A stretch of 12,885 bases of DNA. Source: Candidatus Omnitrophota bacterium. GTDB lineage: Bacteria > Omnitrophota > Gorgyraeia > 1-14-0-20-64-10 > JACQQZ01. The notes under the pieces are model-generated. The model had not been told where the DNA came from and did not search any database. It saw nothing but the letters and a program-made list of their open reading frames with translations. How positions within the stretch are numbered: the stretch's first letter is position 1; each line of letters starts with the position of its first letter. A program made the translations under genes and the position numbers. Where the stretch lies: the NCBI GenBank assembly GCA_016206755.1, contig JACQQZ010000133.1:1-12885 (forward strand). Reading direction: 5' to 3'. Below are positions 731-12,170 of this stretch, one piece after another.

Positions 731-1579
731 ATGAGCGTTAGGATGTCTCGACGCACGCCACCACTGTCTGCCTATTTCAAGAAGCGCCAGGCGCTTGTCA
801 ACCGCGCTTTGGAGCGTGTTCTGCCCAAGGCAGATGCGTATCCCAACGTGATTCATGAAGCCATGCGTTACGGCGTTCTGGGGGAAGGTAAGCGCGTCCG
901 CCCGATCCTGGCGCTGGCTGCCTGCGAGGCGGTCGGCGGGGCCCTCGAAGAAGCGCTGCCGGCCGGCTGCGCCATCGAGCTGGTCCATGCCTATTCTCTC
1001 GTTCACGATGATCTGCCTGCGATGGACGACGACGATTTCAGGCGCGGAAGGCCTTCCTGTCATAAGCAATTCGGCGAGGCCATCGGGATCCTGGCCGGCG
1101 ACGCGCTTTTCACTTTGAGCTTTCAGGTCATTTCCCGGCAACGGTCTCATCCTGCGCGTTGGCTTCAGATCAACCAGGAGTTGGCCCAGGCCGCCGGTAC
1201 TTTCGGCATGATCGGCGGGCAAGTCGCCGACTTGCAAGGTCCGGAAGCTGCTGCAAAAACATCAACCCTGGAGTATATTCTTGAGCACAAGACAGGGGCG
1301 TTGATCGCCGCTGCCGTGCGTATGGGCGCTTTGGCGGGAGGGGCAACGCCCAAGCAGTTGGCGAAGCTGACCCGTTATGGCGAGTGCGTCGGCCTTGTTT
1401 TTCAATTGGTGGATGATTTGCTGGATCGCGACGGCGTGGTGAAGGTCTGGGGGGAATTGGTCACGCGCCAGCGCGCGGAAAATTTGACCGCTCAAGCGAA
1501 GGCAGCGCTGGCTTCCTTTGGGTCCAAAGCTCAACCGCTTCGAGACATTGCGGATTTTCTGAACTCCCGGGAGCATTAA
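731..1579 (+). CDS. ispA: Short-chain polyprenyl (farnesyl/geranylgeranyl-type) diphosphate synthase
   Basis: This enzyme condenses dimethylallyl or geranyl diphosphate with isopentenyl diphosphate, most likely to farnesyl diphosphate, the squalene precursor. The first aspartate-rich motif is DDLPAMDDDD at residues 93-102, preceded by HAYSLVH as in bacterial farnesyl diphosphate synthases. The second is DDLLD at 228-232. The GEGKRVRP segment (51-58) binds substrate phosphate. At 282 residues it is slightly short: after the second motif the usual GK...KATYP region is replaced by a compact DGVVKVWGE stretch. ATG 731 is used; an in-frame ATG at 743 is an alternative, and neither has a strong Shine-Dalgarno. 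It is the first gene of the operon, 3 nt before the DXS gene. Product chain length (C15 or C20) is inferred, not proven. Confidence 0.9.
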   Translation: MSVRMSRRTPPLSAYFKKRQALVNRALERVLPKADAYPNVIHEAMRYGVLGEGKRVRPILALAACEAVGGALEEALPAGCAIELVHAYSLVHDDLPAMDDDDFRRGRPSCHKQFGEAIGILAGDALFTLSFQVISRQRSHPARWLQINQELAQAAGTFGMIGGQVADLQGPEAAAKTSTLEYILEHKTGALIAAAVRMGALAGGATPKQLAKLTRYGECVGLVFQLVDDLLDRDGVVKVWGELVTRQRAENLTAQAKAALASFGSKAQPLRDIADFLNSREH

Positions 1580-1582
1580 ACC

Positions 1583-3499
1583 ATGGCAGGACTTTTGGAT
1601 AAGATCGACACCCCTCAAGACCTTCGAGCGTTGCGTCAGGATCAGCTTCCGCAGGTGGCGCAGGAGATTCGAGAGGCGATCATCGATACGGTTTCTCAAA
1701 CCGGCGGTCATTTGGGCGGCGCCATCGGCGCGGTCGAGCTGGTTCTTGCGCTGCATTACGCTTTCAACACCCCGGAAGACCATCTGGTCTGGGACGTCGG
1801 TTATCAGGCCTATGCCCACAAATTGATCACAGGCCGGCGCGACCGGTTTAAGACGCTGCGCCAGTACGGCGGCATCAGCGGTTTTCCTCATCGGGATGAA
1901 AGTCCCTACGATCTGTTCACCATCGGCCATGGCTGCACTTCCATTGCAACGGCATTTGGTTTGGCGCGCGCCCGCGACCATCAGGGCAAGAATCATCATG
2001 TCGTCGCGATCATCGGCGACGGTTCTTTGCCGGGGGGGTTGGCGTTGGAAGGACTCAACAATGCCGGACACTCTAAAACCAATTTCCTCATCGTTCTCAA
2101 TGACAACGACATGGCCATTGCGCCGGCCACCGGGGCGCTCAATCGCACGCTCAATCGAATCATCAGCGACCCGCTCTACAACCGCATTCGGCGCAAGATC
2201 ACCGAGCGCGTCCAGCGCTTGCCCCATCTGGGATTCGGCATTCTTCGTTTGGCGCACCAAATTGAAGAGCATTTGAAGAGTTTTCTGGTTCCCGGAATTG
2301 TATTCGAAGAGCTGGGCTTGCGTTATTTCGGACCGGTCGACGGCCACAACGTCGGCGAGTTGATCAAGACGTTCAACAACATCAAAGACCTCCCGGGACC
2401 GAAAATTTTGCACGTGCGCACCGTCAAGGGCAAAGGGTTGGCGTATGCCGAAAAAGAGCAGTGGAAGTACCATGGCGTGACCCCGTTCGATCCGGGCACG
2501 GGCGAGCTTAAGAAAAAACCGGCCCCGGAAACTTTTACCCAGCGGTTCGGAAAAACGGTGATTGATTTGGCGGAGAAAAACCCCGCCGTTGTGGCCATCA
2601 CGGCGGCCATGCCGGACGGAACGGGTTTGGTGGAGTTTTCCAAGAAGTTTCCGGACCGTTTTTACGACGTCGGCATGTGCGAGCAGTACGCCGTCGCATT
2701 TGCCGCGGGATTGTCGAAAGCGGGGATGAAGCCGGTCGTCGCCATCTACTCTACTTTCCTGCAGCGGGCGTACGATCAGGTGATTCATGATGTTTGCATT
2801 CAGCGCTTGCCGGTCATTTTCTGCATGGATCGTGCCGGTCTGGCCGGGGATGACGGCATTACGCATCACGGGGAATTCGACATCTCTTATCTGACGCCGC
2901 TTCCGAACATCGTTTTGGCGGCGCCCAAAGATCTCGACGAATTTGAAGCGATGCTGCATTTCGCCGCCAATTACACGGCAGGCCCCATCGCCATTCGTTA
3001 TCCGCGCGGCGGCGTTCTGCGCACCGAGGCCCCCATCATTCCGTTCGATGACCGGAAAAATCCGATTGCCGTCGGGAAGGGCGAATACTTGGCGCGCGGG
3101 ACGGATGCCGCCATCTTTGCCCTCGGCAGCATGGTGTACCCCTCTCTCGAAGCGGCGGCGTTGCTCAAGCAGGAAGATTTGAGCGTTTCCGTCCTCAATG
3201 CGCGTTGGGCAAAGCCGTTGGATACCGCGCTCATTGACGACGCCGTCCAGGCGCACCGCGTGCTGGTGACCGTGGAAGAGGGAACCAAGCGCGGCGGTTT
3301 TGGAAGCGCCGTCCTCGAATACTTGGAATCCAAAGGAATCAACCGGCTGCGATTGCGGGTGATTGGATTTTCAGACCGGTTTTTCGAACATGGCAAACGC
3401 GAGCTTCTCCTTGAGAAACAAGCGGGCTTAACGCCGGAAGCCATTGCAGCCCATGTGAAGTCGGTGTTGGCCCAAACGCCGGAGCTGCATTCCGTTTGA
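1583..3499 (+). CDS. dxs: 1-deoxy-D-xylulose-5-phosphate synthase (divergent)
   Basis: DXS condenses pyruvate and glyceraldehyde 3-phosphate with ThDP, the first step of the MEP isoprenoid pathway, in the cytoplasm. The 638 residues cover the whole family: GGHLGG (41-46), the ThDP motif GDG at 145-147 with NDN at 173-175, FEELGLRYFGPVDGH, YSTFLQRAYDQ, the catalytic Glu in EQY (E367), THHG with H428, RYPRGG, and a DRFFEHG C-terminal signature. Two normally conserved histidines are tyrosine here: WDVGHQ reads WDVGYQ (Y74), and the EQH after the catalytic Glu reads EQY (Y369). GHSS reads GHGC. A GGGAG ribosome site at 1569-1573 lies 9 nt before the ATG. Its place in the cluster suggests a pathway-dedicated copy boosting precursor supply. 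A related transketolase-like function is possible but less likely. Confidence 0.87.
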   Translation: MAGLLDKIDTPQDLRALRQDQLPQVAQEIREAIIDTVSQTGGHLGGAIGAVELVLALHYAFNTPEDHLVWDVGYQAYAHKLITGRRDRFKTLRQYGGISGFPHRDESPYDLFTIGHGCTSIATAFGLARARDHQGKNHHVVAIIGDGSLPGGLALEGLNNAGHSKTNFLIVLNDNDMAIAPATGALNRTLNRIISDPLYNRIRRKITERVQRLPHLGFGILRLAHQIEEHLKSFLVPGIVFEELGLRYFGPVDGHNVGELIKTFNNIKDLPGPKILHVRTVKGKGLAYAEKEQWKYHGVTPFDPGTGELKKKPAPETFTQRFGKTVIDLAEKNPAVVAITAAMPDGTGLVEFSKKFPDRFYDVGMCEQYAVAFAAGLSKAGMKPVVAIYSTFLQRAYDQVIHDVCIQRLPVIFCMDRAGLAGDDGITHHGEFDISYLTPLPNIVLAAPKDLDEFEAMLHFAANYTAGPIAIRYPRGGVLRTEAPIIPFDDRKNPIAVGKGEYLARGTDAAIFALGSMVYPSLEAAALLKQEDLSVSVLNARWAKPLDTALIDDAVQAHRVLVTVEEGTKRGGFGSAVLEYLESKGINRLRLRVIGFSDRFFEHGKRELLLEKQAGLTPEAIAAHVKSVLAQTPELHSV

Positions 3500-5457
3500 T
3501 GAGCCCAGAGATTTTTGAGGCGCAACAGCTTAAAACTTTCGCTTCCTCCGCTCAGGATGCGTTGACGCGCACCATTGTTCAAGCGCGCTCCGGGCTTTTG
3601 TCCATGCAGGATGTTTCCGGTTACTGGTCCGGCGAATTGGAAGCGGACACGACACTCGAATCCGACACCATCAAGTTCTGGCACTTTTTGGGCCGCGTGG
3701 ACCGCGCCCGGGAACAGAAGCTTGCCGCCTACATTCTCAGCAAGCAATTGCCCGCCGGCGGATGGAACATTTATGAAGGCGGGCCGGCAGAGCTCAACGC
3801 AACCGTCAAAGCTTACTTTGCCTTGAAGTTGGCAGGGCACAAACCGGAAGAGCTTTTGATGCGCAAGGCCCGCGAGGTCATTTTGCGCTTGGGCGGATTG
3901 GGCCGGGTCAACAGTTTTGAAAAAACATACCTGGCCGTTTTTGGGCAGTATCCGTGGAGCCAGGTCCCGTCCCTTCCTCCGGAAATTATTCTTCTGCCGA
4001 ACTGGTTTGTTTTTAACGTCTATGAAGTCTCGGCTTGGTCGCGGACCATTCTCATTCCATTGACTCTCCTGAATGCTTTGAAGCCACGGGTCGAAGTGCC
4101 CCCGGGATGCACGCTGGATGAGCTTTGGCCGGATCCTTCCCGGAAGGTCAGCGTGGTGACCAATGTTCAATCGAAAGGCGCCGCATGGCGGCGCTTCTTT
4201 CTGGCCGTCGATCGCATGCTGAAAATTTGGGAGGCGACGCCTTTCAAGCCGTTCCGGCGCAAAGCCATTCGCGAAGCCGAGCGCTGGTTGCTGGATCACC
4301 TGGTTGATTCCGACGGGCTGGGAGCGATTTATCCGGCGATGATCAACGCCGTCTTTGGTTTAAAGGCATTGGGCTATCAGGATGGCGACCCGATCCTCGA
4401 ACGCCAAATTCAGGAAGTGGATCGCTTGGGAATTGAAGAAAATGGCGCCGTTCGTCTTCAGCCGTGCTTTTCACCGGTATGGGACACGGCCATTGCTGCT
4501 TACGTGTTGTCTGGAACGGGTGCGGCCGCAAATTCCGAATCGTTGACGCGCGCCAATCGCTGGCTGCGCTCCAAAGAGGTGCGCCGCTACGGAGATTGGG
4601 CGGTGAAAAATCCGGGCGTTGCGCCTACCGGTTGGTACTTCGAGCATCTCAACGTGTTGTATCCGGATGTGGATGACACCGTGATGGTCGGTCTGGCCCT
4701 GGAGCGGTTGCGCTCGGTGGATGCCGAGGCGACGCAACATGCGATCGATCGCGCCCGCGCTTGGACATTGTCGATGCAAAATGACGACGGCGGATGGAGC
4801 TCCTTCGACAAAAATAACAACTGCCGGGCGCTCACCTATTTCCCGTTTGCCGATCACAATGCCATGCTGGATCCTTCTGCCTGCGACATCACGGGCCGCG
4901 TGCTGGAATTTTTGGCCACGCAGGGGATGACGACACGTGATTTGCCCGTTCAAAAAGCAATCCGATTCCTCTTGGACAGACAAGAGTCGGACGGAACCTG
5001 GTTTGGCCGCTGGGGTGTGAACTATATTTATGGGACCTGGCTGGCGTTGCGCGGCTTGCGGGCGGTCGGCGAGCCATTGGCCCAACCCCGCTATCAGCGC
5101 GCAATTCAATGGCTTGCGGATCATCAGAATTCAGACGGTGGATGGGGGGAAACAATCGCCACCTACGACGACCCTTCCTTGCGCGGCACCGGAGAGAGCA
5201 CCGCTGCTCAAACGGCATGGGCGATCTTGTCCTTTTTGGCGCTGGGGCAATCGGATCATCCTGCTGTGGCCCGGGGTGTCCAACGCCTGATTCAAACGCA
5301 GCAGCCGGACGGAACGTGGCAGGACCGTTCTTGGACGGGCACCGGTTTCCCAAAAGTCTTTTATCTCAAGTACCACTTGTACGCGGCTTATTTCCCGTTG
5401 CTGGCGTTGTCGGAATTCCAATGCCAGCAGTCGAATCAAGGCAATGACATGCCGTAG
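3499..5457 (+). CDS. shc: Squalene-hopene cyclase
   Basis: This membrane-associated class II terpene cyclase turns squalene into hopene/hopanol, the committing step of hopanoid synthesis. The protonating motif DVDD is at residues 390-393, inside YPDVDDTVMVGLALE. QW-type repeats of the alpha/alpha barrel end at W433 (NDDGGW), W501 (ESDGTW), W549 (NSDGGW) and W607 (QPDGTW). QPCFSPVWDTA and the C-terminal GTGFPKVFYLKYHLY are also family hallmarks. The length of 652 residues is normal for bacterial enzymes. The ATG at 3499 shares one base with the DXS stop (TGATG), so the two are translationally coupled; a TTG one codon earlier is a less likely start. The next gene is hpnH, the standard downstream partner. 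Confidence 0.97.
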   Translation: MSPEIFEAQQLKTFASSAQDALTRTIVQARSGLLSMQDVSGYWSGELEADTTLESDTIKFWHFLGRVDRAREQKLAAYILSKQLPAGGWNIYEGGPAELNATVKAYFALKLAGHKPEELLMRKAREVILRLGGLGRVNSFEKTYLAVFGQYPWSQVPSLPPEIILLPNWFVFNVYEVSAWSRTILIPLTLLNALKPRVEVPPGCTLDELWPDPSRKVSVVTNVQSKGAAWRRFFLAVDRMLKIWEATPFKPFRRKAIREAERWLLDHLVDSDGLGAIYPAMINAVFGLKALGYQDGDPILERQIQEVDRLGIEENGAVRLQPCFSPVWDTAIAAYVLSGTGAAANSESLTRANRWLRSKEVRRYGDWAVKNPGVAPTGWYFEHLNVLYPDVDDTVMVGLALERLRSVDAEATQHAIDRARAWTLSMQNDDGGWSSFDKNNNCRALTYFPFADHNAMLDPSACDITGRVLEFLATQGMTTRDLPVQKAIRFLLDRQESDGTWFGRWGVNYIYGTWLALRGLRAVGEPLAQPRYQRAIQWLADHQNSDGGWGETIATYDDPSLRGTGESTAAQTAWAILSFLALGQSDHPAVARGVQRLIQTQQPDGTWQDRSWTGTGFPKVFYLKYHLYAAYFPLLALSEFQCQQSNQGNDMP

Positions 5458-5512
5458 TGGGTGGCTTGAGCAGGCGTAGAACTTGTGAGCAAGTCAACAG
5501 AGGGGTTTGTTC

Positions 5513-6682
5513 ATGGCGGTTTCTTTTCGTCAAAGCATGGCGGTGGCGCGGTACATTTTCGAGCAGAAGCGCAAGGGGGTAGGGCGTTACCCGTTGGTGC
5601 TCATGCTCGAGCCGTTGTTCCGGTGCAATCTCGAATGCGCCGGCTGCGGCAAAATCCAATATCCGGAAGAGATTCTTAAAAAACGCCTCTCCCCCGATGA
5701 ATGCGAACAGGCGGCTTTGGAATGCGGCGCGCCGGTCGTCTCGATTCCGGGCGGCGAGCCGTTGCTGCACCCGGAGATCGGCGAGATCGTTCGCCGCCTG
5801 ATCAAGCACAAAAAATTCATCTACCTCTGTACGAACGCGCTGCTGCTTGAGAAAAAGCTCAAAGAATTTACGCCTTCACCTCATCTGACCTTCAGCGTTC
5901 ATCTGGATGGTCTGGAGGCCACGCACGACAATGCCGTTTGCAAAGAAGGCGGTTTCCGTTTGGCGATCAACGGCATCAAGGCCGCCAAGCGGGCCGGTTT
6001 TAAGGTAACCACCAACACCACCATCTACAACAAGGCCAACCCCGAAGAATTCCGGACCTTTTTCGATTACCTGATGGAGCTGGGCGTGGATGGGATGATG
6101 CTTTCTCCGGGGTATCCTTACGAGAAAGCTCCCGACCAGGAGCATTTTTTGCAGCGCACGCAAACGCAAGAATTGTTCCAGAAAATCCTGGGGAATCCCA
6201 AGCCGCATTGGGAATTCAACCACTCCACATTTTTTCTCGAATTCCTGCAGGGAAAACGCAATTACCAGTGCACGGCCTGGGGCAACCCGACGCGCAACAT
6301 CTTTGGCTGGCAGAAGCCCTGCTACCTGATGTCTGATGGGTATGTTCAGACGTTCAAGGAGCTGATTGAAGAGACGCCGTGGGATCGCTATGGGACTGGA
6401 CGCGATCCGCGCTGCGCCGACTGCATGGTGCATTGCGGGTATGAGCCGACGGCGGTCAACGATGCCACCGGCAGCTTGAAGAACATGCTTTATTCTCTTC
6501 GGAAAGACATGCTTCGTCCCAGGCGGAAGCATCCGCCCAATCTGGATGTTGTTGCCCCTGCTGCGCCCATTCAGTTTGGAACAGGCGCTGCTTTGGCGCC
6601 TTTGGCCAAAGGCCAGCGACCGGAAGAAGTCCCCGTGGGAGAGGCCATGGTGCGGCTTCCATCTGCCGCAACCAAAAATTAA
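5513..6682 (+). CDS. hpnH: Radical SAM adenosylhopane synthase HpnH
   Basis: HpnH joins a 5'-deoxyadenosyl radical to hopene, giving adenosylhopane, the first C35 hopanoid. The radical SAM CxxxCxxC motif is C38, C42, C45, in the family context [33 protein letters not shown] is the SAM-binding GGE region. The C-terminal half keeps the family's conserved cysteines ([33 protein letters not shown]), probably metal ligands. The start is ATG 5513, with AGAGGGG at 5499-5505 as ribosome site; a TTG two codons upstream is less likely. The gap after shc is 55 nt, the largest in the operon. The last 50 or so residues form a Pro/Ala-rich tail of no recognised fold. Confidence 0.95.
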
Positions 6683-6697: not shown

Positions 6698-7222
6698 ATG
6701 GGGACAGGAACTGCCTCACAAGATTTTGCCCGGAATGTTCTAGCGACTCTCGAAGCCGAGGGGTTTAATTTTTTTACCGGCGTGGCCGATTCGCTCGTCG
6801 GGCCATTGATCGCCCGCTTAAGCGATGGTCCTAACCCGCGCTATGTTCCTGCCGTTCGGGAAGACACCGCTGTTGGGCTTGCCGCCGGCGCCTATCTGGC
6901 AGGACGCTGGCCCTGCGTTCTGATGCAAAATTCCGGCGTCGGTTATTCACTCAATGCACTGACCAGTCTGAATCTGATTTACGAAATACCAACCCTGCTG
7001 ATCATCGGATATCGGGGGTACCAAGGGAAAGACGCCCCTGAGCACATCGTCATGGGACGCAGTTGCGAAGCGCTCCTGAAAGAAATCGGCGTTCCCGTGC
7101 AGATCCCGGATGCCGATCAATTGCTGGAAACCATCGCCGATGCGAGCCGGTGGATGAAAGAACACCGGACGCCTGCCGCCATTTTCATTCGCCCCGGAGT
7201 CCTCAACAGTGAACACGCGTGA
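6698..7222 (+). CDS. ThDP-dependent decarboxylase, alpha (PYR-domain) subunit; phosphonopyruvate/sulfopyruvate type
   Basis: This is the pyrimidine-binding half of a 2-oxo-acid decarboxylase such as phosphonopyruvate decarboxylase (Ppd/AepY) or the alpha subunit of sulfopyruvate decarboxylase (ComD). The Glu that activates ThDP is E55, in VREDTAVGLAAGAYLAG. QNSGVGYSLNALTSL (77-91) and IIGYRGYQGKDAPEH (102-116) match both families. KDAPEH resembles the KDEPQH of Ppd, while two separate subunits of about 170-190 residues resemble ComDE. The partner is the next gene, which overlaps it by 14 nt. A purine-rich GGAAAGG lies just before the ATG. The product would be phosphonoacetaldehyde or sulfoacetaldehyde, the substrate class of the aminotransferase two genes on. 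Family assignment is firm; substrate is not. Confidence 0.85.
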   Translation: MGTGTASQDFARNVLATLEAEGFNFFTGVADSLVGPLIARLSDGPNPRYVPAVREDTAVGLAAGAYLAGRWPCVLMQNSGVGYSLNALTSLNLIYEIPTLLIIGYRGYQGKDAPEHIVMGRSCEALLKEIGVPVQIPDADQLLETIADASRWMKEHRTPAAIFIRPGVLNSEHA

Positions 7223-7769
7223 AGCGCTCGATCAGATCGTCCCGCTGCTTGGGGATGAGCTTGTCATCCATACGACCGGGTTTATCTGCCGGGATTCCTG
7301 CGCCGCGGCCGACCGCCCAGGAAATTTCTACATGATCGGATCGATGGGGCTGGCCCCCTCCATCGGCTTGGGGCTTGCCATGTCGCGCCCCCAGCGCCGC
7401 ATCGTTGTTTTTGACGGCGATGGGGCGCTTTTGATGGCCATGGGAACTCTGGCAATGGTGGCCCGGGAGAACCCGAAAAACTTTTATCATCTGGTTTTTG
7501 ACAATGAGGCATATGCTTCGACAGGGCATCAGCCCACCCATTCCCGGCACGTCGATTTGGATAAAATTGCTCTGGCCAGCGGTTATGCTCACGTGTTGCG
7601 TGCCGACAAGCCGGAGCAGCTCAAGGCGGGATTTTTGAATCTTGTCTCCAAACCTGGGCCGGGATTCCTCCTGATCAAGTGCATCAACCGTTCCCCTCAG
7701 CCCGGCGCACGCATCGTTCACGAACCTTCGATGATTACGCGGCGGGTTCGTGAGGCGGTCGGGACATGA
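7209..7769 (+). CDS. ThDP-dependent decarboxylase, beta (PP-domain) subunit; phosphonopyruvate/sulfopyruvate type
   Basis: This is the diphosphate-binding half of the decarboxylase begun by the previous gene. The ThDP/Mg motif runs from GDG at 70-72 to N99 in VFDNEAYASTGHQPT, closely matching phosphonopyruvate decarboxylase and ComE. SMGLAPSIGLGLA (45-57) is the usual segment preceding it. The start is GTG 7209, inside the end of the alpha gene, with GGAG at 7196-7199 nine nt upstream. That site and the intact N-terminus (NTREALDQI) argue for a true two-subunit enzyme rather than a broken gene. The 186-residue length fits ComE. It ends in a 4-nt ATGA overlap with the aminotransferase, so the three proteins are probably made in coordinated amounts. 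Confidence 0.87.
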   Translation: MNTREALDQIVPLLGDELVIHTTGFICRDSCAAADRPGNFYMIGSMGLAPSIGLGLAMSRPQRRIVVFDGDGALLMAMGTLAMVARENPKNFYHLVFDNEAYASTGHQPTHSRHVDLDKIALASGYAHVLRADKPEQLKAGFLNLVSKPGPGFLLIKCINRSPQPGARIVHEPSMITRRVREAVGT

Positions 7770-8842
7770 AACCCAGGCAGTATGTTCTGTTGTGTCCCGG
7801 ACCCGTCAATGTCACTTCAGCGGTCCGTAAAGCCGCCGTCAGCGTTGATCTGTGCCACCGCGAACCGGAGTTCTCGGACCTTCAGGAAGGCGTTCGCCGA
7901 AAACTTCTTACAATTTTTGGAATTTCAAAGACGCACACAGTGGCTTTGGTCGGCGGTTCAGGCACCGCCGCGCTTGAAGCGATGATTTTGTCGGCTGTCC
8001 GGCCCGAGGAAAAGCTCCTGGTGGTCGACAACGGTATTTACGGCGAGCGCATTTACAAAATCGCCGCCATTCACAACATCCCCGCCGTGCGGCTTCAGTC
8101 GTCCATTTTGGAACAGCCCAATTTAGAGGTTCTGGAAAACGCGCTCCGCCGCGATGCTCGGATCGGCGCTGTGGCGATGGTGCAGCACGAGACCTCCACG
8201 GGGCTGCTCAACCCTGTCGAAAAAATCGCCGCTTTGACCAAGCGTTACGGCAAAACTTTCGCTCTCGATGGCATCAGCAGCTTGGGCGCAGAAGAGCTGT
8301 CTTTTGACGGCATTGGCCTGTGCGCCGGATCGGCAGGGAAATGCCTGCATGGGTTTCCGGGGTTTTCGTTCGTCCTGGTTTCCAAGGCGCACCGCCGCCG
8401 CTTGTCCTCGATGACGCGGCGATCGTTTTATCTCGATTTGGCCGCTTTACTCGATTCGCAGGAACAAGGCGAGCCGCTTTTTACGCCTGCGGTGCAATTG
8501 ATCTTGGGACTGAATGCCGCGCTGGATGACCTGCTTCGCGAAGGCCTTCGCAACCGCATCCGAATGTACCGCATGCGCTCCCGGTATTTGCGGGACGGTT
8601 ACGACCGGTTGGGATTCGTTCCTCTGTTGGTGCGCCCGCTGCAATGCCATACATTGACGGCGTTGCGGTTGCCCAAACGGGTCAGCTACGAAAAAATTCA
8701 TGACCGGCTGAAAAAAGACGGTTTTGTGATTTATGCGGGGCAGAGCCGCCTGCGCCGCGAGATTTTTCGCATCTCGCACATGGGACAAATGACCATTCAG
8801 CGGATGGATGGTTTGCTGCATTCTCTGGCCAAGGTGATTTGA
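7766..8842 (+). CDS. Class V aminotransferase, 2-aminoethylphosphonate:pyruvate transaminase (PhnW) type
   Basis: This PLP enzyme of the PhnW/alanine-glyoxylate aminotransferase family would interconvert phosphonoacetaldehyde and 2-aminoethylphosphonate with an amino donor. The PLP lysine is K192 in AGSAGKCLHGFPGFSFV, close to the SSANKCIQGVPGFAF of PhnW. D168 (ALDGISSLG) would bind the pyridine nitrogen. GGSGTAALEA (63-72) and MVQHETSTGLLNP (138-150) are family-typical, and R335 (FRISHMGQ) matches the carboxylate-binding arginine. The N-terminus starts LLCPGPVNV, as in PhnW LLTPGP. At 358 residues it is full length. Placed right after the decarboxylase, it would run toward amine formation rather than catabolism; no phosphonatase (PhnX) is nearby. 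Taurine from sulfoacetaldehyde is the main alternative product. Confidence 0.85.
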   Translation: MKPRQYVLLCPGPVNVTSAVRKAAVSVDLCHREPEFSDLQEGVRRKLLTIFGISKTHTVALVGGSGTAALEAMILSAVRPEEKLLVVDNGIYGERIYKIAAIHNIPAVRLQSSILEQPNLEVLENALRRDARIGAVAMVQHETSTGLLNPVEKIAALTKRYGKTFALDGISSLGAEELSFDGIGLCAGSAGKCLHGFPGFSFVLVSKAHRRRLSSMTRRSFYLDLAALLDSQEQGEPLFTPAVQLILGLNAALDDLLREGLRNRIRMYRMRSRYLRDGYDRLGFVPLLVRPLQCHTLTALRLPKRVSYEKIHDRLKKDGFVIYAGQSRLRREIFRISHMGQMTIQRMDGLLHSLAKVI

Positions 8843-8843
8843 A

Positions 8844-9467
8844 ATGACCCATCCAATTGGTTTTATACGATTCAACCGGCGCTGCTCCTCCTATGTGATC
8901 CGCGCGTTGGCCAAATTGCCTGTGACTCCGAATCAGGTGACCCTGTTTAATCTGGGCGTCGGTTTGTTGGCCATGCTGGCATTGGCGCAAGGAAAATGGT
9001 GGAGCGCGATTTTAGGCGCTTTTTTCCTTGAGGTCAGCTATATCTTGGACAACTGCGACGGGGAATTGGCGCGCATGCGCGGGATGGTTTCTCTGCTGGG
9101 GCGGCAATTGGATACGCTGGTCGACACCGTCATTCACGTCGGCCTTTTTCCGGCGATGGCGATCGGCGTTGTTCGTCAAGGATGGCACGGACCGTTTACC
9201 TGGGTCGGCTGCATCGGGGGGTTGGCCACGCTTGTGATTTACATCATCACGCTCATGCAAGAAGGTGATCAGAGTGCGGCTTCCGTCAAGGCGCTTCCGG
9301 CTTGGCATGGTTTTAAGGATGCCGCGCGCACGGATTATGCGCTTTTGGTCTTGCTGTGCGCTTCTTTGGGATGGCTGCCGGGACTTTTGTGGGTCAGCGT
9401 CATCGGTGTCGTGGTTTTGTGCGCGGCCATTTTGATCCACGTTGTCCAGGGAGGCCGGATCATCTGA
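8844..9467 (+). CDS. CDP-alcohol phosphatidyltransferase family membrane enzyme
   Basis: The family exchanges CMP in a CDP-linked alcohol or lipid for another alcohol, building phospholipid head groups at the membrane. The full signature D-x2-DG-x2-AR-x8-G-x3-D-x3-D is present: D69, D72-G73, A76-R77, G86, D90, D94. These aspartates bind two metal ions. The 207 residues carry several hydrophobic segments, roughly 33-66, 95-110, 118-140, 160-178 and 180-203. The N-terminus (RALAKLPVTPNQVTLFNL) is typical of the family. AAGG-type ribosome site AAGG at 8831-8834 lies 9 nt before the ATG. Next to the aminoethylphosphonate-type genes it could attach that amine, as a CDP derivative, to a lipid alcohol. 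Nothing in the sequence fixes the acceptor, and an ordinary phosphatidyl-inositol or -glycerol role remains possible. Confidence 0.87.
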   Translation: MTHPIGFIRFNRRCSSYVIRALAKLPVTPNQVTLFNLGVGLLAMLALAQGKWWSAILGAFFLEVSYILDNCDGELARMRGMVSLLGRQLDTLVDTVIHVGLFPAMAIGVVRQGWHGPFTWVGCIGGLATLVIYIITLMQEGDQSAASVKALPAWHGFKDAARTDYALLVLLCASLGWLPGLLWVSVIGVVVLCAAILIHVVQGGRII

Positions 9468-10441
9468 TGCTTCTCCGGCGCGTCGGCGTCATTGTTGGAA
9501 TCGGACTGTTGATTTGGATTGTCCGGTCCGTCGGCTTGGAGGCGATTTGGCAGGAATTTTGCAGAATGGGTTGGCGGCTCCTGCTGATTTTGGGATTCTA
9601 TTGGGTCATCTTCGCTTTGGACACCTTGGGATGGTATTACTCTTTTACTCAGGGTTACAACCAAGCTTCGGTCGGCTCGCTGTTTTTAATACGCTTGGCG
9701 GGCGAGGCGATCAACTACGTGACCCCTTTCGCGCAAATGGGCGGGGAACCGGTCAAAGTCCTCTTGCTCAAACAAAAGCATGGCATTCCTGTCCAAGAAG
9801 GGTTTACCTCCGTGGTGATCGCCAAAACTGCCATTACGGCGGGTTTATTCTTCTTTGCTGCATGCAGCGCCGCGGCGGCATTGCTGTACGGTCATCTGTC
9901 GAGCGTCTTTGCCCGGGTGGTCTGGATCGTCTTGATCTCCATGGGTATTTTAACTTTTCTATTTGTCCTTGCCCAGCGCCACGGAATTTTTGAACGCGCC
10001 GTTCCCATGCTGGAAAAAATGATGGGCGCGCGCAGTGTGAGCATCGAAGGCGCCGGCCAAGAAATTGATGCCAGCATCCGGAATTTCTACAGATCGCAGC
10101 GCAGCCGGCTTTTTTTGTCGGTGCTGTTTCATGCATTGGGCTGGGCGGCAGGGGTGGTCGAGGTTTGGCTGATCCTCCATTTCCTGGGTTTGGGCGTGAG
10201 TTTCGTTCAGGCCTGGATGATCGAGGGTTTGTGGCAGCTGCTCAAGGCCGGCGCTTTTATGATTCCGGGGGCGATCGGTGCGCAAGAGGGCAGCGTTCTC
10301 TTTATTTTTTTGAACATGGGCCTTTCCTCGCCCGCAGCGGTGGTTTTGGCATTGGTCCGGAGAATCCGGGAAATTTTTTGGGCCGGTATCGGTCTGGCCG
10401 TCTGGTCGGGCTACGAGTACGGATCTGCAAAGGCGCTCTAG
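9467..10441 (+). CDS. hpnL: HpnL-like polytopic membrane protein (lysylphosphatidylglycerol synthase TM / flippase-like family)
   Basis: The 324-residue protein has about seven or eight hydrophobic helices (approximately 4-20, 37-57, 115-141, 150-168, 214-240, 262-284, 288-312). It carries the family motifs NYVTPFAQMGGEPVKVLLL (83-101) and IPGAIGAQEG (256-265). These place it in the LPG-synthase transmembrane/YbhN-type family that includes HpnL of hopanoid clusters. HpnL has no proven activity; related proteins act in lipid translocation or head-group presentation, so a role in moving a modified lipid is an inference. ATG 9467 shares a base with the preceding stop (TGATG), with AGGGAGG at 9448-9454. 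A longer upstream frame from 9356 lies inside the previous gene and is rejected as the start. Confidence 0.82.
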   Translation: MLLRRVGVIVGIGLLIWIVRSVGLEAIWQEFCRMGWRLLLILGFYWVIFALDTLGWYYSFTQGYNQASVGSLFLIRLAGEAINYVTPFAQMGGEPVKVLLLKQKHGIPVQEGFTSVVIAKTAITAGLFFFAACSAAAALLYGHLSSVFARVVWIVLISMGILTFLFVLAQRHGIFERAVPMLEKMMGARSVSIEGAGQEIDASIRNFYRSQRSRLFLSVLFHALGWAAGVVEVWLILHFLGLGVSFVQAWMIEGLWQLLKAGAFMIPGAIGAQEGSVLFIFLNMGLSSPAAVVLALVRRIREIFWAGIGLAVWSGYEYGSAKAL

Positions 10442-10442
10442 G

Positions 10443-11438
10443 ATGAAGCCGGAAGTTTTGGTAACGGGTGCTTCTGGATTTATAGGGAGCCATGTGGTTC
10501 GACGCCTGGCAGCCCGGGGAATTCCTGCGCGCGTTTTGGTGCGTCAGACCAGCTCGATGAAAGCGCTGGCGGGATTGCCGGTAGAGGCCGTTTATGGCGA
10601 TCTCGCGGATTCTTCAAGCATTCGCAACGCCGTCCGCGGTTGCCGGTTCGTCTATCATGTCGCAGCCGATTACCGTTTGTGGGCGCGGAACCCTCAAGAG
10701 CTGTACGCCAGCAATGTCCGCGGAACCACCCATGTTTTGGAGGCGGCCTGGGCGGAAAAAGTGGAGCGCATTGTTTACACCAGCAGCGTGGGCGCCCTGG
10801 GGCTCTGCAGCGATGGATCCGCAGCCACCGAAGAAACCCCTGCTGTCCTGGAAGCCATGGTCGGCCATTACAAGCGATCGAAATATCTGGCCGAACAGGA
10901 AGCGCTGCGATTGGCCAGGCGGGGATGTCCCGTTGTGATCGTCAATCCCTCAACGCCGGTCGGTTCTTGGGATGTGAAACCGACGCGCACGGGCCAGATC
11001 GTCGTTGATTTTCTCAAAGGCAGGATGCCGGGGTTTGTCGATACCGGCCTGAACCTGGTCGATGTGGAAGATGTCGCAGAGGGGCATCTGTTGGCCATGG
11101 AAAAAGGGCGGGTGGGTGAGCGCTATATCTTGGGCTCAAAAAATATGCCGCTTCGGGAGATTCTGGAGGTTTTGGGGCGTCTGAGCGGCCGTCCCGCTCC
11201 CAAAATGCAAGTGCCTTGGGCGGTTGCCTACGCGGCGGGGTGCGTCAGCTCGGCGACGGCTTGGCTGACCGGCCGGCCTCCCGCCATTCCTTTGGACGGC
11301 GTGCGAATGGCGCGCAAAAAAATGTACTTTGATGCGGGAAAAGCCGTGCGTGAGCTTGGGCTTCCCCAACATTCCGTAGAGGTTGCTTTGGAGAAAGCGG
11401 TGGAATGGTTCCGCCAACACGGCTATGTTGCTGCTTAA
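10443..11438 (+). CDS. hpnA: HpnA-type NAD-dependent epimerase/dehydratase (extended SDR)
   Basis: HpnA is a hopanoid-cluster sugar-nucleotide-like epimerase/dehydratase. Its exact reaction is not established. It may act on the ribosyl or other polar end of the hopanoid. The Rossmann motif GASGFIG is at residues 9-15. The catalytic YxxxK is Y143-K147 (YKRSK), with upstream TSSVGALG holding the active-site serine. NPSTPVGSWDVKPT and LNLVDVEDVAEGHLLA are strong HpnA-like segments. The 331-residue length is normal. AAAGG at 10429-10433 is its ribosome site, and it begins one base after the HpnL stop. Its pairing with hpnG downstream is seen in other hopanoid clusters. Confidence 0.9.
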   Translation: MKPEVLVTGASGFIGSHVVRRLAARGIPARVLVRQTSSMKALAGLPVEAVYGDLADSSSIRNAVRGCRFVYHVAADYRLWARNPQELYASNVRGTTHVLEAAWAEKVERIVYTSSVGALGLCSDGSAATEETPAVLEAMVGHYKRSKYLAEQEALRLARRGCPVVIVNPSTPVGSWDVKPTRTGQIVVDFLKGRMPGFVDTGLNLVDVEDVAEGHLLAMEKGRVGERYILGSKNMPLREILEVLGRLSGRPAPKMQVPWAVAYAAGCVSSATAWLTGRPPAIPLDGVRMARKKMYFDAGKAVRELGLPQHSVEVALEKAVEWFRQHGYVAA

Positions 11439-11444
11439 AGTCCA

Positions 11445-12170
11445 ATGATCGGAGTTCTGGCAGCCCATTCCATTGAGCTGGCCATGCTCAAGCGTTCCTT
11501 GACGAAAAAACGCAGCTCTCATGGCGTGGTGTACGGACGGTTGCGCGGCGTCTCTGTCGCCCTGGTCAGTTTGGGTCAGGGAAGCAAGCGCGCGGAAAAA
11601 ACGCTGATCCATTTTCTGGAAACGCATCAGGTCCGCGGCGTCATCATTGCAGGTTTTGCGGGAGCAACGCATCCGGATTTGGTGGTCGGAGATATTCTGA
11701 TTCCGGAAGAAATCGTCGACTTAAGAGAAAGCGAAGAGGCGCGTGAAGCGGTCAGTTTCCAGCCGCCGATTCGCTTGAATGATCTCCGGGGAATTGTTTC
11801 CGGCCGCGCGGGGGTTTTGGGGACAGTCAGCAGCGTTGTGATTGAACCGTGGGACAAAGAACGCATCGGTGAGCAAGCCCGCGTGATTGCGGTGGACATG
11901 GAAACGGTGGCGCTGGCCGCTCAGGCGCAGGTGAGCGGCTTGCCGTGGATCGTGGTCCGCGCGGTTTTGGACCCGATGGACCGCCCCCTGGGCGTTGTTT
12001 CTTGGACCCACGCCTTGATTCTCTTGATTTCGGTTCGAGGTTGGGGACGGTTGGCGCGTTTTGGGATTGATCTTGTGACTGCACAACGCCGGTTGGGCGA
12101 AAGTGTGGCTGTGATCGTTGAATGGATGCAACGCATGTTGGACAAAAGGACATCGAGCCATGAAGAATGA
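11445..12170 (+). CDS. hpnG: HpnG, adenosylhopane nucleosidase/phosphorylase
   Basis: HpnG belongs to the purine nucleoside phosphorylase/MTA nucleosidase superfamily and removes adenine from adenosylhopane, leading to ribosylhopane. The conserved VDMET, with the ribose-binding Met-Glu, is at residues 150-154. The phosphate/ribose-side segment GFAGATHPDLVVGDILIP (70-87) and the motif RAVLDPMD are also seen. The 241-residue length is typical. The gap after hpnA is 6 nt, with only a weak ribosome site (AAAG), so translational coupling is likely. Its last 11 nt overlap the start of the next gene. It acts directly after HpnH, though the two genes are separated here by six others. Confidence 0.92.
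   Translation: MIGVLAAHSIELAMLKRSLTKKRSSHGVVYGRLRGVSVALVSLGQGSKRAEKTLIHFLETHQVRGVIIAGFAGATHPDLVVGDILIPEEIVDLRESEEAREAVSFQPPIRLNDLRGIVSGRAGVLGTVSSVVIEPWDKERIGEQARVIAVDMETVALAAQAQVSGLPWIVVRAVLDPMDRPLGVVSWTHALILLISVRGWGRLARFGIDLVTAQRRLGESVAVIVEWMQRMLDKRTSSHEE

Follow-up and report, generated by a model that had tools for sequence, protein, structure and literature searches.

We report that a hopanoid operon of a Candidatus Omnitrophota bacterium (assembly GCA_016206755.1) encloses, between hpnH and hpnL, four closely packed genes for a two-subunit decarboxylase (ppdA and ppdB), a PhnW-type aminotransferase and a cytidine diphosphate (CDP)-alcohol phosphotransferase. The stretch of DNA analysed, hereafter the window, comprises positions 1 to 12,885 of contig JACQQZ010000133.1 (C95:1-12885 of genome G000, which is 1.05 Mb long and 80% complete); G-numbers denote genomes, L-numbers fetched loci and C-numbers contigs of G000. 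Hopanoids, which in bacteria are the counterpart of sterols, are preserved as molecular fossils. The block is real, conserved and recurrent, and most likely belongs to an undescribed aminophosphonate-hopanoid pathway that has been partly foreseen for Roseomonas. We consider it fairly probable that the block forms the central part of a pathway for tailoring with 2-aminoethylphosphonate (AEP) within a C35-hopanoid operon, and we infer its substrates, acceptor and transport. An undescribed kind of membrane lipid thus probably exists.

In the proposed pathway, a phosphoenolpyruvate (PEP) mutase, encoded on another contig of the window genome, would convert PEP to phosphonopyruvate, which PpdA/PpdB would decarboxylate to phosphonoacetaldehyde. 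The PhnW-type enzyme, acting in the synthetic direction, would turn this into AEP, a PntC-type nucleotidyltransferase would activate AEP to its cytidine monophosphate (CMP) derivative, CMP-AEP, and the CDP-alcohol phosphotransferase would move AEP from CMP-AEP onto a hydroxyl of an extended hopanoid. Shc, HpnH and HpnG would make that acceptor, and HpnL, or HpnN in other lineages, would handle or flip the product. Genes fit for each step are present, conserved and linked in relatives.

Family models, motifs and folds agree on the enzymes of the block. Both decarboxylase subunits score higher on the NCBIfam phosphonopyruvate decarboxylase model TIGR03297 (scores in Table 1) than on the sulfopyruvate alpha and beta models TIGR03845 (113.6 bits) and TIGR03846 (160.3 bits), the ComDE type, which are neither passed at cut-off nor the best match for either subunit. 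In the Protein Data Bank (PDB), PpdA matches chain A (2.8e-31) and PpdB chain B (1.3e-29) of 9iz3. Residues R54-E55-D56 and Q77-N78-S79-G80 of PpdA are invariant in alignment A1, and the thiamine diphosphate (TPP) motif GDG...(D/N)N of PpdB is found in 92/92 homologous open reading frames (ORFs) of the fetched loci, duplicates included. The pair is a decarboxylase of the phosphonopyruvate type with TPP sites, split between two subunits. For the aminotransferase, the best model is TIGR03301 (PhnW-AepZ) and the best PDB match is the AEP transaminase 9kk8 (3.8e-56), whose SANKCIQG aligns with SAGKCLHG in the window, as expected of an AEP aminotransferase. The last protein of the block has both the motif and the fold of CDP-alcohol phosphotransferases: it matches AF2299 (4o6m, 1.6e-14), D69, D72, G73, A76, R77, G86, D90 and D94 are invariant in alignment A3, and the motif DxxDGxxAR...GxxxDxxxD recurs in 37 of the 40 such ORFs of the fetched loci, duplicates included. 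Its predicted structure (predicted local distance difference test, pLDDT, 86) has AF2299 (5.9e-6) and the bifunctional IPCT-DIPPS (3.2e-4) as best Foldseek folds.

The surrounding genes are those of C35-hopanoid synthesis, with SHC and HpnH both over their curated cut-offs. The original prediction, made from the sequence of the window, had placed the block between hpnH and hpnL, and its gene calls and coordinates proved right against ORFs, translations and family models. From shc onward the genes are spaced by 49, 15, -14, -4, 1, -1, 1 and 6 nt; ppdB, which has a GTG start, overlaps ppdA by 14 nt, the aminotransferase gene overlaps ppdB by 4 nt, a 1-nt gap precedes the CDP-alcohol phosphotransferase gene, and hpnL begins at 9467. 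PpdA homologues occur in all ten family or order genomes searched, at 59-72% identity and each adjoining hpnH (in G004, G008 and G009 the PpdA frame is hidden under an overlapping ORF in the gene map and was placed by search coordinates). The usual order among these relatives, to contig limits, is ispA-dxs-shc-hpnH-ppdA-ppdB-phnW-hpnL-hpnA-hpnG-SHC-like; G003, G007 and G009 share with the window a small CDP-alcohol phosphotransferase gene placed between phnW and hpnL, and hpnJ, hpnK and hpnI, whose products in G003 exceed NCBIfam cut-offs, lie at that position in G003 and G007. Chance linkage is ruled out by the adjacency in 10/10 relatives, and an assembly artefact by identical gene order in metagenome-assembled genomes (MAGs) of different studies.

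The co-occurrence with hopanoid genes that the original prediction suggested checking is borne out in a census of 193 Omnitrophota genomes, the window's included: a decarboxylase was found in 6/7 hpnH carriers versus 12/186 others (Fisher p 1.9e-6, kinship not corrected). G083 is the only one of the seven hpnH-bearing genomes in which none was found. Here shc, hpnH and hpnA are contiguous, less than 25 nt apart (L164:2145-6078), and the block, which in its kin runs from a gene family that we call MDW to the CDP-alcohol phosphotransferase, is absent from that place together with hpnL; MDW and decarboxylase were sought genome-wide, the other block genes within a 16.7-kb stretch. This gap supports one functional cassette that includes hpnL.

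Beyond the order, we scanned named genomes using the PpdA alignment and followed up the best 80 of 575 loci; this sample is skewed towards the window's kin, among which the best matches are Candidatus Omnitrophota MAGs and the nearest PpdA is 70% identical. PhnW is present in 36 of the 80 loci, and a hopanoid gene lies within about 1.1 kb in 22 of these, always hpnH, hpnI or hpnN. Of the 14 unlinked loci, eight are in genomes with SHC or HpnH elsewhere (six Nitrospirota, one Binatota, one Actinomycetota), five in genomes where neither was found, and one fell outside the test; overall, SHC or HpnH was found in 18/25 genomes searched for them. In this sample the module is thus not mostly a resident of genomes or loci without hopanoid genes, an outcome in favour of the original prediction. 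The linked loci comprise eight from the window's order; six of a second Omnitrophota lineage (L043 and L067 being family f36) with the order shc-hpnH-[MDW]-ppdA-ppdB-phnW-pntC-CDP-alcohol phosphotransferase-hpnL-hpnA, to contig limits; five Binatia-type loci (one labelled Desulfurellaceae) with hpnN-ppdA-ppdB-phnW-pntC-hpnK-hpnI-hpnJ; one deltaproteobacterial locus with hpnN-ppdA-ppdB-phnW; and two Planctomycetota (one a Brocadiales MAG) with hpnJ, hpnK, hpnI, MDW, ppdA, ppdB, phnW, a separate or fused nucleotidyltransferase and a CDP-alcohol phosphotransferase. NCBIfam checks of the hopanoid genes in linked loci covered L098, L053, L063 and L037/L020. The linkage needs five changes on a 37-row PhnW tree, at least three of them forced by supported branches: the link between hopanoid and AEP genes is not one recent event.

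Several neighbouring arrangements were kept apart from these counts. Hopanoid genes also occur in 5/44 loci without PhnW; two of these five, L052 and L056, stop before PhnW's place. The ppdA/ppdB pairs beside an HpnA-like gene in Nitrospinota and some Nitrospirae (L057-L062, L064, L066, L068, L069, L071-L074, L076-L078, L082-L086 and others) were initially taken as linked and then excluded, because PhnW is missing from them and their HpnA-like protein, a member of the short-chain dehydrogenase/reductase family, is only 23-33% identical; a conserved ORF of ~580 residues often stands alongside, and these loci appear to represent an aminotransferase-free use of the decarboxylase. In Rokubacteria (L091:9980-15081, L089:158-5381), a fused ppdA-ppdB lies beside an HpnN-like MMPL transporter (36-37% identity) and, judged by eye, a putative inositol-3-phosphate synthase; L091 has hopanoid genes ~3 kb from the fused gene and was not counted, having no PhnW. 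Nitrospira and other Nitrospirota (L094, L096, L097, L075, L079, L090) carry ppdA-ppdB-phnW, mostly with pntC, CDP-alcohol phosphotransferase and an HpnL-like gene, and have shc and/or hpnH on other contigs.

Candidate genes for the steps missing from the block lie elsewhere in the genomes of the order. The window genome has one PEP-mutase-type gene, on contig C74 beside ispH, whose frame continues into a nucleotidyltransferase domain and is cut after the domain's first residues, where the contig ends; its best NCBIfam model is TIGR02320 (271 bits, under the cut-off of 319.55). In G005, G008 and G009 a PEP mutase-nucleotidyltransferase fusion, 62-64% identical to the C74 gene in the shared part, is convergent with a nucleotidyltransferase-CDP-alcohol phosphotransferase fusion gene at the end of the hopanoid operon, directly adjacent in G008 and G009 and separated by one ORF in G005; G001 has the pair on a separate contig. 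The second fusion is present in 10/10 order or family relatives and lies beyond the SHC-like gene on the same contig in G002, G004, G005, G006, G007, G008 and G009. From this arrangement we infer that the end of C74 would face that of C95, with the remainder of both genes on a missing piece between them. In other lineages, the nucleotidyltransferase either stands alone beside phnW or is fused to PhnW. PEP mutases are most often fused to such nucleotidyltransferase domains, in 59.5% of the 1485 counted in one survey (PMC6697681).

The PEP-mutase-type enzymes of the order have an unusual form of the diagnostic motif, reading EDATFPKRCS, EDSTFPKRCS or EDNLFPKRCS in the relatives read, of which only G002 has a canonical one. 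In a tree of 47 rows (L134 left out for length, three identical copies counted once), 21 KRCS and 17 NS rows stand together, apart from eight lyases and one unclassified row, with 100/100 support; the KRCS rows are not a single clade in the best tree, though they may have one origin. Among the 193 Omnitrophota genomes, a PEP-mutase-type gene (E <= 1e-40) occurs in 17, and since 16/17 of these also have the decarboxylase, the KRCS-type mutase probably feeds the same pathway. Enzymes of the wider ED(N/A/S)xFPK(R/K)CS type were seen in L001:1447-2391, L025, L034, L040, L050, L130-L132, L138-L141, L153, L155-L161 and L166, most of them in frames of sufficient length to include a fused nucleotidyltransferase; filtering by motif would discard these enzymes.

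An independent, cultured case is provided by a plasmid of Roseomonas marmotae, which has candidates for every proposed step, with AEP and hopanoid genes within about 22.5 kb. The stretch carries an MMPL transporter, a polyprenyl synthetase, a phosphocholine-type cytidylyltransferase, aepX, aepY, a flippase-like gene, PhnW, a CDP-alcohol phosphotransferase with its motif intact, ispH, hpnH, hpnG, shc, hpnE, hpnD, hpnC, a glycosyltransferase and hpnA. Its PpdA is 42.5% identical to the window's, and the 550-residue aepX product matches the PEP mutase-nucleotidyltransferase fusion over 526 residues and reads canonical EDKLFPKTNS. No hopanoid genes were found among the annotated features of the plasmid decarboxylase loci of Azospirillum thermophilum and Rhizobium etli or of the plasmid PhnW locus of A. 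lipoferum; the locus of R. rhizoryzae carries no annotation. A 2021 paper described linkage of PEP mutase to hopene cyclase in Roseomonas and suggested an undiscovered terpene-phosphonate (PMC8776678); it names R. aerilata DSM 19363, R. nepalensis and R. oryzae as bearing the linked cluster, and its hybrid clusters resemble the window's lineage in tying the mutase to hopanoid genes. The portion of that paper drawn on here names mutase, decarboxylase and aminotransferase in one alphaproteobacterial family, the Acetobacteraceae; what is added here is the cytidylyltransferase, the CDP-alcohol phosphotransferase, HpnL, the conserved order in Omnitrophota and the further phyla.

A second type of carrier has the MDW gene, which encodes a 286-residue, all-helical protein family with conserved His, Asp and Glu and without a significant Pfam or NCBIfam match. 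It stands directly before ppdA in ten loci (L043:9124-9981, L053:9106-9978, L041, L042, L045, L049, L052, L055, L056 and L067) from the second Omnitrophota lineage, three Planctomycetota and one Nitrospirae MAG. Of the 31 remaining decarboxylase genomes in which both genes were sought, 27 carry a PEP-mutase-type gene above 170 bits, and MDW was not found in these 27; set against the MDW carriers described below, this gives a Fisher p of 9e-7, kinship not corrected. On the PhnW tree G213 groups within the MDW lineage; it lacks MDW and instead has a canonical PEP mutase, encoded in an unrelated setting on a different contig. We tentatively suggest that such carriers may have a second, PEP-mutase-free entry, with MDW as a non-homologous replacement that would be either a new enzyme forming carbon-phosphorus (C-P) bonds or the supplier of a different decarboxylase substrate. 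That four decarboxylase genomes (G223, G224, G230 and G235) yielded neither gene speaks against this.

A number of observations weigh against the aminophosphonate-hopanoid pathway as proposed. Both decarboxylase halves and the aminotransferase fall under the NCBI equivalog cut-offs (312.5 for full-length TIGR03297 and 360.8 for TIGR03301 and, among the sulfopyruvate models, 147.95 for TIGR03845 and 221.5 for TIGR03846), although TIGR03297 and TIGR03301 are still their best models. The PEP mutase of the window genome reads EDNLFPKRCS and lacks the diagnostic EDKxxxxxNS, and no full PntC or nucleotidyltransferase-CDP-alcohol phosphotransferase gene was found in this 80%-complete genome. The proposed PntC enzymes match the structures of LicC and Treponema denticola PntC but also sugar nucleotidyltransferases, and for one of them the best NCBIfam models are sugar-type, far under cut-off. 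PEP mutase was found in 0/10 MDW genomes (nine searched at E 1e-10, G044 at 1e-40), and neither MDW nor PEP mutase in the four genomes named above, although a gene not found in a draft genome may still be present in the organism. The HpnN proteins of L098 and L063 score 598 and 594.5 bits against a cut-off of 751.85. Further, 12/18 Omnitrophota decarboxylase genomes showed no hpnH, from which it appears that the AEP part also works without hopanoids, and G083 shows that hopanoid genes can do without the AEP block.

The hopanoid acceptor is the weakest link of the pathway, and diacylglycerol is its main rival: AEP on diacylglycerol would give a phosphonoglycerolipid, the phosphonate analogue of phosphatidylethanolamine, in which case the hopanoid genes would be no more than co-regulated membrane-lipid genes. 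Diacylglycerol is the usual acceptor of CDP-alcohol phosphotransferases whose CDP-alcohol donors are soluble; the predicted fold of the window's enzyme also fits CDP-diacylglycerol-using synthases, which are its next matches, and cholinephosphotransferases and CEPT1 are among the weaker ones. The decarboxylase genomes without hpnH imply that a non-hopanoid acceptor exists somewhere, and gene linkage cannot distinguish the two acceptors. A hopanoid is nevertheless indicated, because the block sits among, and not beside, side-chain genes in unrelated lineages, lies within about 1.1 kb of hpnH, hpnI or hpnN in 22/22 linked loci, is accompanied by hpnI, hpnJ and hpnK, and is absent along with hpnL from its place in G083, where shc, hpnH and hpnA are present; we regard the diacylglycerol explanation as rather unlikely. 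That AEP decorates a surface glycan, or the sugar of a glycosylated hopanoid, rather than the hopanoid chain itself would accord with bacterial AEP tailoring being mostly of cell surfaces, both glycans and lipids, as described in the survey (PMC6697681), and with the linkage of hpnI, hpnK and hpnJ, the genes for bacteriohopanetetrol (BHT) glucosamine and cyclitol ether, in G003, G007, the Binatia-type loci and the Planctomycetota. We find this improbable, as NCBIfam and Pfam scans recognised no glycosyltransferase in the window operon and the transferase belongs to a membrane family acting on lipid or small alcohols.

Other readings change the chemistry. The lack of a detected PEP mutase in MDW-type carriers, which keep decarboxylase, PhnW, PntC and CDP-alcohol phosphotransferase where the contig reaches, would fit a route from 3-phosphohydroxypyruvate through phosphoglycolaldehyde, phosphoethanolamine and CDP-ethanolamine to a phosphoethanolamine hopanoid, and the window might do likewise; the PEP-mutase-type gene fused to a nucleotidyltransferase in the window genome and its order makes this very unlikely. 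The original prediction had left open whether the head group is AEP or taurine-like. The taurine version, in which a sulfopyruvate decarboxylase and the aminotransferase would make taurine for a sulfonolipid, draws on the matches of both subunits to sulfopyruvate models, and we give it hardly any credence: the subunits score higher as phosphonopyruvate decarboxylase, PEP mutase and phosphonate-type cytidylyltransferases in the order favour the phosphonate branch, and taurine needs no CMP activation. It was set aside on these grounds, ComA-type genes not having been searched for, and nothing found favours it; the prediction is supported in its AEP form. PhnW is best known from AEP degradation with PhnX, and the control locus of Azospirillum lipoferum (L174) indeed combines PhnW-PhnX with AEP transport genes. 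Within the window, to which the search for them was confined, there is neither PhnX nor an AEP transporter, and a decarboxylase, needless for catabolism, stands with PhnW in the order relatives; the catabolic reading was set aside and its probability is negligible.

The remaining genes of the window are listed in Table 1. Full dxs ORFs, 62-68% identical, occupy the same position in seven relatives. HpnL is slightly under its cut-off, and HpnG misses its own though a PNP_UDP_1 phosphorylase domain is clear. The single-domain SHC-like protein at the contig end also accompanies AEP genes in other Omnitrophota, in Nitrospirota (between pntC and CDP-alcohol phosphotransferase) and in Binatia-type loci (directly after PEP mutase), with genes at L026:15057-16169, L096:3080-4147, L075:8706-9686, and L138 and L169:7902-8876; the copies of L096 and L138/L169 are 53-57% identical to that of L026, and the proteins share the stretch WSLTxGxQDxELVAHA.

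Table 1. Genes of the window in order along the contig, with the models that support them.
Feature	Position	Strand	Support
ispA-type farnesyl diphosphate synthase	731..1579	+	NF045485 297 bits, cut-off 275
dxs, 1-deoxyxylulose-5-phosphate synthase	1583..3499	+	named from translation
shc, squalene-hopene cyclase	3499..5457	+	TIGR01507 677 bits, cut-off 431
hpnH, adenosyl-hopene transferase	5507..6682, first ATG 5513	+	TIGR03470 527.8 bits, cut-off 225
ppdA, phosphonopyruvate decarboxylase alpha (TPP N domain)	6698..7222	+	TIGR03297 122.5 bits
ppdB, phosphonopyruvate decarboxylase beta (TPP C domain)	7209..7769	+	TIGR03297 172.7 bits
phnW/aepZ-type 2-aminoethylphosphonate aminotransferase	7766..8842	+	TIGR03301 318.7 bits
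CDP-alcohol phosphotransferase, proposed AEP-lipid transferase	8844..9467	+	PF01066 48.8 bits, cut-off 22
hpnL-like membrane protein (flippase-like, LPG_synthase_TM)	9467..10441	+	TIGR03476 183.4 bits, cut-off 195.65
hpnA, hopanoid-associated sugar epimerase	10443..11438	+	TIGR03466 474 bits, cut-off 368
hpnG-like phosphorylase	11445..12170	+	TIGR03468 82.7 bits, cut-off 187; PNP_UDP_1 72.6 bits
SHC-like single-domain protein, truncated by contig end	12160..12885	+	PF13243 40.3 bits

The known kind to which the block belongs is most likely AEP tailoring, and what would be new is the lipid class that carries it. The Pnt pathways, proposed to tailor bacterial cell surfaces with AEP in the manner of the phosphocholine (lic) pathway (Rice et al. 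2019, PMC6697681), have in common with the pathway proposed here a PEP-mutase-type enzyme fused to a PF12804 nucleotidyltransferase, an AEP aminotransferase and the putative CMP activation; unlike the Pnt pathways as presented there, the genes here are interspersed with hopanoid genes, and the series finishes with a CDP-alcohol phosphotransferase. That survey chose its enzymes by EDKxxxxxNS, the motif that the mutase of the window genome lacks, and reports 22/905 PEP-mutase fusions without it. Among hopanoid systems, the HpnI/HpnK/HpnJ product, BHT glucosamine or cyclitol ether, likewise places an amine-bearing polar group on a C35 hopanoid, and its genes share an operon with the block in G003 and G007; in the account consulted, its amine is sugar-derived, with no C-P bond and no CMP-activated donor (PMC12583986). 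HpnO, which makes aminobacteriohopanetriol, is likewise an aminotransferase in hopanoid synthesis (PMC12583986), whereas that of the window is PhnW/AepZ-like and linked to a decarboxylase pair. Among the papers listed by literature searches, none was seen to report a phosphonate-bearing hopanoid in its title or the opening of its abstract, which is no proof of absence.

If the proposal is true, a head group combining a C-P bond with a primary amine would define a class of lipids that may escape the standard work-ups for hopanoids, and aminophosphonate hopanoids would add a new reservoir to the phosphorus cycle. Genome mining that relies on motifs would pass over such clusters, because their PEP mutase has a KRCS-type motif in place of EDKxxxxxNS, and a new enzyme may be hidden in the PEP-mutase-free carriers. 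The locus of cultured Roseomonas makes the proposal directly testable.

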